DNA from: a virus
Length of the DNA: 22,929 nt
IMG/VR virus record: IMGVR_UViG_3300020215_000142
Coordinates: 1 to 22,929 of that record
Direction: 5' to 3' (one strand)
This document shows, in pieces, positions 1 to 14,927 of this stretch; within the stretch, counting starts at the first letter, position 1; the number at the start of each line of letters is the position of its first letter. The position numbers were made by a program, and so were the translations under genes. A model generated the notes under the pieces. That model did no database searches. It had not been told where the DNA came from and saw only the letters and a list, made by a program, of their open reading frames with translations.

Positions 1-80
1 CTGTAATACGCATCCTCAAGATCGCGGCAATCCGGACAAATATTGATCATATGCTTCGGCCCATGTTGACACGGAGTCAT
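1..80 (-). CDS. Small cysteine-rich (zinc-ribbon-like) protein, partial
   Basis: Only the first 26 codons are inside the window; the gene runs off the left edge. It begins with ATG at base 80, which overlaps the stop of the preceding gene as ATGA, so translation is probably coupled. The visible protein has a CQH near its start and a CPDC knuckle about 13 residues later, followed by RDLEDAYY. This is the layout of short phage zinc-ribbon proteins with a Cys/His pair and a CxxC pair. Function is not known; metal binding is inferred from cysteine spacing only. Confidence 0.55.
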   Translation of the reverse strand, partial: MTPCQHGPKHMINICPDCRDLEDAYY

Positions 81-199
81 TTGCGCTCCTTGGGCCTATC
101 CTTCAACTCCAACTGCCGTTTCATCTCCGCATCCAACCACGGCAACAGGGGATTGGCGTACCAGAGGAGACCTTCGAGCTTATTTAGTTTGGCTACCAC
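77..199 (-). CDS. Small hypothetical protein (40 aa)
   Basis: A 40-residue frame opens at GTG (base 199), preceded by AGAGGAG with a spacer of about 7 bases, and ends in a TGA that overlaps the next gene's ATG. The protein is an amphipathic helix with Leu and Trp (LLWYANPLLPWLD) and a charged tail rich in Lys, Arg and Glu. It shares the tight coupling seen through the rest of this operon, which is the main reason to accept it. No family recognised. It is separated from the RusA-like gene by about 300 bases that carry an inverted repeat and a predicted minus-strand terminator, so it may be expressed only by read-through. Confidence 0.5.
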   Translation of the reverse strand: MVAKLNKLEGLLWYANPLLPWLDAEMKRQLELKDRPKERK

Positions 200-226
200 G
201 TCTGACTCCTCTTGCCTGCGGCACGT

Positions 227-270
227 AAAAAAGCAAAAGCACCCGTCCGTTCGCTTCGCTCACGGCGGGG
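227..270 (-). terminator. Predicted intrinsic terminator of the early operon
   Basis: Read on the minus strand, a G/C stem (CCCCGCCGT pairing with ACGGACGGG, one bulged A) is followed by a broken run of T (TTTTGCTTTTTT). It lies downstream of the RusA-like gene and partly overlaps the left arm of the long inverted repeat. Confidence 0.5.
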
Positions 271-297
271 ATAAAAGCAAACCCATCCAAAGGTCTC

Positions 298-326
298 TTG
301 ACTTCCAGAGTGTCAAAACCTATAAT
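298..326 (+). promoter_or_regulatory. Plus-strand promoter of the small RNA
   Basis: TTGACT (298-303), a 17-base spacer and a perfect TATAAT (321-326). It points right, against the surrounding minus-strand genes, and sits within and just beyond the left inverted-repeat arm. Predicted start of transcription is near 333. Confidence 0.6.
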
Positions 327-332
327 TCTTGC

Positions 333-427
333 CGTTGCGAAGGGTGATGCCGGAGCAACTCCAAAGGTCGAAAGACTGAACAGAGTGAAGAGAAGCCCTC
401 GGAGAAATCTGGGGGCTTTTTCTTTTT
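333..427 (+). ncRNA. Putative small structured RNA (about 95 nt)
   Basis: The stretch from the predicted start near 333 to the terminator T-run has no credible reading frame. It can form a GTTGC/GCAAC stem, a short hairpin with a GNRA loop (GGTC-GAAA-GACT) and a terminator hairpin. I compared it by eye with common riboswitch cores (glycine, c-di-GMP, SAM, fluoride) and could not match it. No coding gene follows on the same strand, so a trans-acting or antisense RNA is more likely than a leader. Existence is inferred from promoter plus terminator spacing. Confidence 0.45.
393..427 (+). terminator. Intrinsic terminator of the small RNA
   Basis: An 8-bp stem (AAGCCCTC with GGGGGCTT, one G-U pair) with a 10-base loop is followed by TTTTTCTTTTT on the plus strand. 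Confidence 0.65.
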
Positions 428-502
428 GCAGCACACTCTGGGAGTCTGAGCGCCTTTGGATGCTTTTGGTTTTATCCCGCCCGTAAGGGCGGAACTTCCT
501 GG

Positions 503-907
503 CTAGTCCTTGCATTCGATCTTCCTCATCGTCACATTCACACAATGCTCAGTCTCACTGTGCCGCTTACTTGCCGAGCAACTCCACACCTGACTATCAT
601 CCCAGCCCTGCTTCTCACTCACAAGATCCACAACTACCTTCACCACGTTCTGCACGTCGGCCTTCCTGAAGTTGCCATTCTTGAAGTACCACGAATCCAC
701 TACCTCAAGCTCAACTGACACCTTATCCGCTGCCGTCACATCCCAGCCCGGCACGTACATCTTCATATTATTCTTGTACAACCTCACCTCCGGCTTCATC
801 TCAACGCGCTTCAACGCAAACATCACGTTATAAAGCGAGTTCATGCTCGGAGGCGCTGCGGGGAGCCGGAAGCATAACACTCCCGGTCCCGCAACAGTTC
901 CGCTCAC
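503..907 (-). CDS. RusA-like Holliday junction resolvase
   Basis: RusA-family enzymes are small dimeric endonucleases that cut Holliday junctions during phage recombination and resolution. The 134-residue protein shows the family layout: an N-terminal LPAAPPSMNSLYN stretch, then a D84-x-Q86-N87-x-x-K90-x-x-x-D94 motif and a DD pair at 103-104 before SQV. The usual pattern is DxDNxxK, so the second acidic residue is replaced by Gln here, which may lower activity or mean another residue takes its place. It starts at GTG 907 directly after the previous stop (TAAGTG); a second GTG at 880 would give a 125-residue protein that fits the family's normal length better. It is the last gene of the recombination cassette. 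Confidence 0.75.
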   Translation of the reverse strand: MSGTVAGPGVLCFRLPAAPPSMNSLYNVMFALKRVEMKPEVRLYKNNMKMYVPGWDVTAADKVSVELEVVDSWYFKNGNFRKADVQNVVKVVVDLVSEKQGWDDSQVWSCSASKRHSETEHCVNVTMRKIECKD

Positions 908-5090: not shown

Positions 5091-6089
5091 CTAGATGCGA
5101 TTTTCATCACAATTTGAGGTGGCTTTTTTGAAGAAACCGAATTCGCGCTCGTCTTTCACGAAGCGCGAGATAATGCCGTCCCCAACCGCTAAAACCTGCT
5201 TAATGTGTTTATAGAACGACGACTTTGGGAGTCCCATAGCGGTATAGGCTTCTTTGGCCCTATACCAGCGCTCGGGATTCGCCACGAAGAACTTCACAAT
5301 GGTATCCGGCTTCGTGGGCCATTGAGCCAGCTCCTCAAAGTACAGCGGATCAGGCTCTACCATGTTCAGCATCACCCTATCCACGATCTTGCCGGACCGT
5401 TGCAAATTGCACTGAAGCGTCCTCGCCTTAGAGGACCTATCCATATCGAATAGAAACTGATGCGTAATCCAAGCCTGAAAGAACACGCTCCCAAACACAT
5501 CATCATCGTCAGGCGGCAGGATGCACCCATCCTTATCGCGTCTACTCTTCTTAAAGTGATGCACAAGTATCATGGCGCAGTTAAACTTCTCCTGAATGAG
5601 CCTAAGACACCCTGTAAAGTCCCTAACCGCCTCATCGTCACTGAGACTGCCCTTCATGGCAAAGTACACGGGATCAATAATCACCACATCTACCTGCTTC
5701 GCGCTCTCTTCAATGCGCTTAATAAGCTGCTCAGTCTCGCTTACATTGTTCAACTGAAGCGGGGGAGAGAAAAGTAGAAAGAAGTTCTCCCTATCCATAG
5801 GCAACGCTTTCGTCATGCGCCTAAACCGGTCCTGACTATCACTCAGGCTCCCTTCAAGCTGCACGTACAGCACCCTGCACTTGCGCCTCACCTCAAACCT
5901 GTCAAGGAACGGCTCCCCACTCGTAAGAGAGCAAATCAAATTAAATAGCAGTACCGACTTTCCTGTCTTCGCCTTACCCGCAAACAGTACAGAATCCTTC
6001 TCGTAAAGAATCTGCTCTATCAGCGGCTCTCTTGACTCAAACTGCTTATTAAACAACTCATCTGCGGTATAAAACCCGAAATCTGACAT
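5091..6089 (-). CDS. RepA-like replicative helicase / AAA_25 ATPase
   Basis: A 332-residue RecA-fold ATPase of the RepA/AAA_25 group, hexameric 5'-3' helicases used by plasmids and phages at replication origins. Walker A is GKAKTGKS (38-45), the acidic strand is YVQLEG (75-80), Walker B is DVVIIDP (134-140), and LVHHFKKS (175-182) is the typical sensor segment. The C-terminal 60 residues look like a winged helix (RAKEAYTAMGLPKSSFYKH). I start it at ATG 6089. A longer frame from a TTG at 6194 would translate a structured RNA into Pro/His-rich sequence without motifs. The binding site (AGGA, 12 bases upstream) is weak, so the leader structure may control translation. It has its own promoter at 6292-6320. 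Confidence 0.78.
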   Translation of the reverse strand: MSDFGFYTADELFNKQFESREPLIEQILYEKDSVLFAGKAKTGKSVLLFNLICSLTSGEPFLDRFEVRRKCRVLYVQLEGSLSDSQDRFRRMTKALPMDRENFFLLFSPPLQLNNVSETEQLIKRIEESAKQVDVVIIDPVYFAMKGSLSDDEAVRDFTGCLRLIQEKFNCAMILVHHFKKSRRDKDGCILPPDDDDVFGSVFFQAWITHQFLFDMDRSSKARTLQCNLQRSGKIVDRVMLNMVEPDPLYFEELAQWPTKPDTIVKFFVANPERWYRAKEAYTAMGLPKSSFYKHIKQVLAVGDGIISRFVKDEREFGFFKKATSNCDENRI

Positions 6090-6555: not shown

Positions 6556-6584
6556 ATTCTATATAGCAACTTGTCGCGTGTCAA
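6556..6584 (-). promoter_or_regulatory. Promoter P2 (leaderless start)
   Basis: Minus strand TTGACA (6579-6584), 17-base spacer, TAGAAT (6556-6561). The predicted start near 6549 coincides with the ATG at 6548, leaving no leader. The promoter begins just past the integrase stop codon. Confidence 0.65.
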
Positions 6585-9898: not shown

Positions 9899-9927
9899 AG
9901 TATAGCCCGTGTCTTGACCCGTGTCAA
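9899..9927 (-). promoter_or_regulatory. Strong promoter P3
   Basis: Minus strand TTGACA (9922-9927), 17-base spacer, TATACT (9899-9904), the best promoter in the window. The spacer repeats GACACGGG from the -35 region. It drives the 9839-7876 operon. Confidence 0.75.
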
Positions 9928-9928
9928 G
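9913..9928. promoter_or_regulatory. Operator-like palindrome copy 3
   Basis: Minus-strand CTTGACACGGGTCAAG differs from the ideal palindrome CTTGACACGTGTCAAG at one of 16 positions and covers the P3 -35 box. A half-copy (GACACGGG) follows at once. Confidence 0.65.
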
Positions 9929-10065
9929 ATTATTTTATGAACTATTTATCGTCCTATTCATTCCAACCTTGAGGGTCAATTGCGAACTAAGCCCAATTTG
10001 TGCGTGATAGGGGCGGATTAATGTTCCTTTTAGGGATGGAAAAGGAGGGAGAATGGAGGTGCAAG

Positions 10066-14826: not shown

Positions 14827-14927
14827 CCCGGCTGCTGATCACAGCTCGGGATAACCAACAAAGCAAGACCTTAACGTTAAGGCACATTGAGGGGCTAAGC
14901 GGCCTCTTGGTGTGCCTTTTTTGTTGG
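14827..14927 (+). terminator. Attenuator-like terminator before the scaffold gene
   Basis: An intrinsic terminator (AAGGCACA 14879-14886 with TGTGCCTT 14911-14918, inner GAGG/CCTC pairing, TTTTTT) is preceded by a 14-bp perfect palindrome CCTTAACGTTAAGG (14869-14882) that shares its 5' arm. A bulged hairpin lies at 14827-14850, and CCAACAAA (14855-14862) can pair with TTTGTTGG (14920-14927). These folds are mutually exclusive, so read-through into the capsid genes may be set by RNA folding. Confidence 0.65.

Follow-up and report, generated by a model that had tools for sequence, protein, structure and literature searches.

What is a stretch of about 250 bases (242-492) doing between two replication-region genes of a phage? 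The window, i.e. the whole stretch of DNA analysed, is a 22,929-base virus record from a virus of bacteria. A leftward operon with helicase-, exonuclease-, Sak4-, SSB- and RusA-like genes fills its left half, and the terminase and head genes of the right half run rightward. The earlier note had placed the unit inside a minus-strand operon, and this is the case: rusA-, ssb-, Sak4- and exonuclease-like genes lie to its right and a 40-aa minus-strand ORF to its left. The rusA-like gene (503-907, minus strand; Pfam PF05866) is upstream of the cassette in the operon. The 40-aa ORF (77-199, minus strand), read from the sequence with a GTG start and an AGGAG site, is downstream and gave no family match. 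The GC content of the first kilobase is close to that of the remainder of the window.

Three other signals were observed elsewhere in the window. On the minus strand at 9899-9930, a promoter (TTGACA-17-TATACT) overlaps a palindrome (9911-9930), perhaps marking the start of the leftward operon with its operator; another strong minus-strand promoter (TTGACA-17-TAGAAT) is at 6556-6584; and a strong plus-strand intrinsic terminator of 18 pairs and a T run is located between structural genes (14879-14918).

Inverted repeat arms and outer hairpins

The cassette contains two inverted arms, the left (L) at 259-313 on the plus strand and the right (R) at 433-487 on the minus strand, each 55 nt long, 76% complementary and separated by 119 nt. 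The pair was recovered both by blastn of the window against itself (E 2e-7) and by a repeat search. There, 200-520 scored 53, a value that no dinucleotide shuffle among 1000 attained, and elsewhere in the window the highest score of 276 pieces of 321 nt was 23. It is the window's only long inverted repeat and its strongest by far; the repeat first described at 264-482, with 38 of 50 positions matching, is the same one slightly trimmed. In the predicted fold, 270-313 pairs with 433-476 (from 270/476 through 313/433) in 39 pairs.

The outer hairpins that had been reported are also present, and each abuts an arm. The left GC hairpin (242-269), seen in the fold, has the loop TTCGCTTCGCTC, which is GAGCGAAGCGAA on the operon strand; the right one (477-492) has the loop GTAA, or TTAC on the operon strand. 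The window has just two perfect 6-bp GC-rich hairpins, and of these the right outer one alone carries a GTAA loop. The proposal of a minus-strand terminator at the left end is no more than suggestive: on that strand the GC hairpin is followed by TGCTTTTGCTTTTTT, but the terminator scan did not flag it.

Outside the left hairpin, a partial extra copy of the A-rich end box (219-244, plus strand; 73%, D1), aligned with the solo unit described below, gives the appearance of tandemly stacked ends. Together with GGGATAAAACC, the right hairpin presumably resembles type I-E CRISPR repeats. A solitary CRISPR-repeat mimic was set aside, given the inverted orientation of the unit and the presence of a similar one around a protein gene.

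Promoter, terminator and the predicted small RNA

The near-perfect plus-strand promoter of the earlier note is borne out. The sigma70-type sequence TTGACT-17-TATAAT (298-326) matches at 11 of 12 positions with 17-nt spacing, its -35 box falls within the left arm, and a match this good on either strand occurred in 1 of 3000 shuffles of the cassette. The plus-strand intrinsic terminator was likewise found, with its stem at 390-421 and a T-rich tail to about 427. A small RNA of about 95 nt (333-427, plus strand) is predicted, with putative start and end. The fold of 333-426 has z -3.5, that of 333-500 z -5.8 and that of 240-500 on the plus strand z -8.4 relative to shuffles; minus-strand folds are less strong (z -5.0 for 259-487, z -2.4 for 200-505). 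Fold scores do not by themselves establish that an RNA exists; promoter, terminator and fold together make a plus-strand RNA from the cassette plausible.

The Rfam search that had been proposed as a check returned nothing for this RNA: with Rfam 15, no match in the window reached the gathering score, and the two best sub-threshold hits displayed as alignments rest on the terminator. Among weak resemblances is ctRNA_p42d (E 0.01; 22.8 bits, where the gathering score is 50), again over the terminator only. A riboswitch or ribozyme was rejected, Rfam support being absent. No credible ORF was found in the window cassette; ORF 298-486 was discarded as a cargo gene, as it begins at the -35 box and runs through the terminator.

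The site after rusA in related phages

Public phage relatives of the window are distant. The nearest long relative, G001, is a 43,575-base phage contig with the same gene order, found by searching viral contigs with a two-sequence Sak4 alignment; its Sak4 is 53% and its RusA 48% identical. In MW202524, RusA is 44%, Sak4 43%, the SSB-like protein 32% and the exonuclease 39% identical. Protein scans of viral contigs with the SSB-like and Sak4-like proteins found no relative, nor did a two-sequence RusA alignment, and the terminase scan found two contigs, too short to hold the rusA region.

Sites with and without the cassette were compared, as the earlier note had suggested: neither of the two relatives that share the gene order has it after rusA. 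In G001 the ORF that follows rusA starts 8 nt beyond it, and in MW202524 rusA is overlapped by the gene that follows. Genes downstream of rusA vary among the phages compared, so the site is not a clean before-and-after pair.

A second cassette and a solo end

G001 has a long inverted repeat of its own, with arms at 5644-5706 and 5859-5920. It lies downstream of rusA, at a distance of about 7 kb, within the same leftward operon. The arms are A-rich and similar to those of the window, and the hairpins, with loop TTCGCTTCGCTC on the left and GTAA on the right, are on the same sides relative to the operon. The cargo is a 68-aa minus-strand ORF, for which no family was found, and the cassette has no promoter comparable to the window's (best 9/12). 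A match to the cargo protein in a 635-kb phage was discounted, as it is not within such a cassette. Because the same build and polarity occur in G001 with different cargo and in a different place, exchangeable cargo is suggested. Across about 198 kb (the window, the whole of G001, MW202524, MW202795 and MW202601, scanned for arms of at least 26 nt, E of at most 0.01 and less than 900 nt apart), just two such inverted repeats were found, that of the window and that of G001.

The similarity of the ends was scored against 2000 shuffles. The score was reached by 1 shuffle for left against left, 2 for right against right and 4 for the window's left against G001's right; window right against G001 left was not significant (194). 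When 1780 pieces of G001 were ranked by their match to the ends of the window cassette, the G001 left end came first for the left end, and a G001 solo unit and the G001 right end were the top two distinct matches for the right end. The margins are small, with an unrelated G001 piece scoring 27 against 29 for the left end and 24 against 26 for the right, and the shared ends are partly A-rich and simple in sequence. The solo unit, a single A-rich hairpin end at about 29,269-29,355 (L026 10770-10856), is between or near structural genes and aligns with the G001 left arm over 49 columns.

Just upstream of the G001 cassette in the operon is an HNH-endonuclease-like ORF (L025 6086-6541; phrog_99, E 1.6e-10), which could bear on how the cassette moved.

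Searches for further copies

The earlier note had also called for a search for other copies of the RNA or the arms; none was found by sequence in the collections scanned. Exact-pattern scans of viral contigs with arm and motif patterns yielded no genuine copy in three scans, two of which gave no hit. The inner-motif pattern gave two hits, a single stretch shared by two contigs that has neither hairpins nor a second copy, and these were attributed to chance. So were the seven hits of the arm pattern in genome contigs: all were inspected, little matched beyond the searched stretch, none had a paired arm, and one (L002) is inside an ORF. Blastn against plasmids gave short chance matches only, and against phages the best 20 of 87 matches cover the terminator only; the Arthrobacter phage matches listed span about 388-426 and were set aside as terminator likeness. 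The end pattern was found in 0 of 7, 0 of 398 and 0 of 296 genomes (699 distinct, from phyla chosen without knowledge of the host), and hence the cassette end is no widespread host repeat in the sampled genomes.

A search for target-site duplications, in the form of direct repeats of at least 4 nt no more than 6 nt from the edges of the outer hairpins, found none in either the window or G001. The Y1 transposase family PF01797 was found in neither of two records, that of the window, which may be a fragment, and G001. Membership in the MITEs or REPINs is therefore not claimed.

The cassette as a proposed acquired unit

With moderate confidence, 242-492 is interpreted as a hairpin-ended inverted-repeat cassette gained by the phage lineage between rusA and the next gene. 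We read it as a moron-like, MITE/REPIN-like unit carrying a gene for an RNA of about 95 nt. Read along the leftward operon, the build would be a TTAC-loop hairpin, an A-rich arm, the cargo, a T-rich arm and a GAGCGAAGCGAA-loop hairpin. The cargo of the window cassette would be a self-contained plus-strand RNA gene consisting of sigma70 promoter, body and intrinsic terminator. The ends are probably the mobile or recombining part, as is thought for MITE/REPIN ends or the promoter stem-loops of T4-type phages, and in the operon mRNA the arms would allow the insert to fold out of the way. Judging from gene content, annealing-driven recombination between units might employ the Sak4 and exonuclease that the phage encodes. 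The RNA may affect the operon as its opposite-strand transcript, may work in trans, or may have no action; insulation of the two flanking genes, raised in the earlier note, would be a further candidate role of the cassette. Against the cassette reading, there is one cassette per genome, at different sites in the window and G001.

Alternative explanations

A third, partial copy of the arm motif (I; 359-388, plus strand) lies between the arms. It matches 19 of 22 positions of a template made of the positions, in the inner part of the arms, where both arms agree; the best of 1000 shuffles matched 17. A looser local alignment is weaker, the left-arm score being reached in 20 and the right-arm score in 66 of 2000 simple shuffles. 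In a plus-strand RNA, 35 pairs (6 G-U) can form between 343-387 and 434-476, compared with 22 pairs on the minus strand; since the inner copy also pairs with 434-476, the right arm has two possible partners. The G-U bias, 2 pairs for the two arms, suggestively favours the plus strand for the inner copy only.

A different reading takes the locus to be a fixed cis-acting regulator, with the plus-strand RNA as counter-transcript of the operon mRNA. It could make that mRNA alternate between two folds, tuning the left-hand genes in the manner of plasmid counter-transcripts. The opposed promoter and terminator, the two partners of the right arm, the better plus-strand pairing of the inner copy and the faint ctRNA_p42d likeness of the terminator are all consistent with it. 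However, neither relative has the cassette after rusA; the outer hairpins and arms reappear round a protein gene in G001, a recurrence that the model would not lead one to expect; and the G001 cassette lacks a comparable promoter. We regard this fixed-regulator reading as possible but rather unlikely.

Less probable still is that the ends are transcript-boundary elements, each of which, read outward, is a T-rich stretch and a GC hairpin that mark or protect a 3' end, so that an outward-facing pair forms an inverted repeat without any mobility. The G001 solo unit fits this, being just 3' of a rightward (plus-strand) gene and behind a terminator-like hairpin. But the outer hairpins lack following T runs, the window's left end excepted (by reading), the similarity of the arms outruns the T-rich box (63 nt in G001, 55 in the window), and one outward unit per cassette has no gene inside to terminate. 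The least likely explanation, convergence of A-rich, hairpin-bearing intergenic DNA with the window repeat a local inverted duplication of the promoter region and no wider family, accords with the low-complexity arms, the nearly equal score of an unrelated G001 piece and the inner partial copy, but it sits poorly with the matching loop motifs, placed on corresponding sides, at each genome's only long repeat and with the third unit in G001.

Comparison with known systems

The cassette resembles several known elements, each in part. Like phage morons, as described in PMC1524935, it is short, is inserted between phage genes, brings a promoter and terminator of its own and is missing from relatives. 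Morons carry protein-coding cargo; the window cargo looks noncoding, whereas the G001 cassette holds an ORF. The cassette also differs in the long inverted repeats and hairpins that bound it and in a GC content near that of the rest. PeSLs are described in PMC4503421 and PMC3950731 as dense promoter-plus-stem-loop motifs in T4-like phages; these short cassettes, too, are at gene boundaries and are linked to gene shuffling. In PeSLs an early promoter is fused to a stem-loop in many copies, whereas the window has a single unit, an inverted pair around cargo. The ESAS motifs of cluster K mycobacteriophages likewise have a sigma70-like promoter in an inverted-repeat motif and are dispersed within one phage lineage; they are, according to PMC11373665, 46-47 bp long with a 15-17-bp repeat, upstream of genes and without cargo between the arms.

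REPINs and MITEs likewise consist of hairpin-bearing repeats in inverted pairs around a spacer, with solo copies besides (PMC3116915), and such a pair plus singlets is seen here, with one pair in the window and a pair and one solo unit in G001. REPINs are numerous and tied to RAYT transposases in the same source, unlike the one pair per genome seen here and the two records, in which no Y1 transposase was found. The earlier proposal of a MITE-like element gains support from its terminal inverted repeats (the 55-nt arms), an equal build with other cargo elsewhere in G001 and the lack of a cassette after rusA in two relatives, but no sequence copy of the RNA or arms, target-site duplication or Y1 transposase was found in the collections and records scanned. 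Phage sRNAs such as lambda PreS are also encoded by a small RNA gene in a phage early region; inverted-repeat arms are not mentioned for PreS-type sRNAs in the portion available of PMC12197685. A literature search for miniature inverted-repeat elements in phages gave no match within the collection and wording used. We know of no sequence relation between the cassette RNA and lambda PreS.

Implications for phage gene gain

A broader proposal, which we put forward tentatively and think rather doubtful as a whole, is that this phage lineage has its own family of hairpin-ended cassettes, of fixed polarity in the early operon, transposase-free, with cargo exchanged between phages and perhaps worked by the adjoining Sak4, exonuclease and RusA genes. 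It is poorly understood how phages come by individual small genes in the narrow spaces of a densely packed genome. Two cassettes in one lineage that have like ends and differ in cargo would supply a well-defined unit for searches, and RNA cargo would widen the moron concept to noncoding genes.
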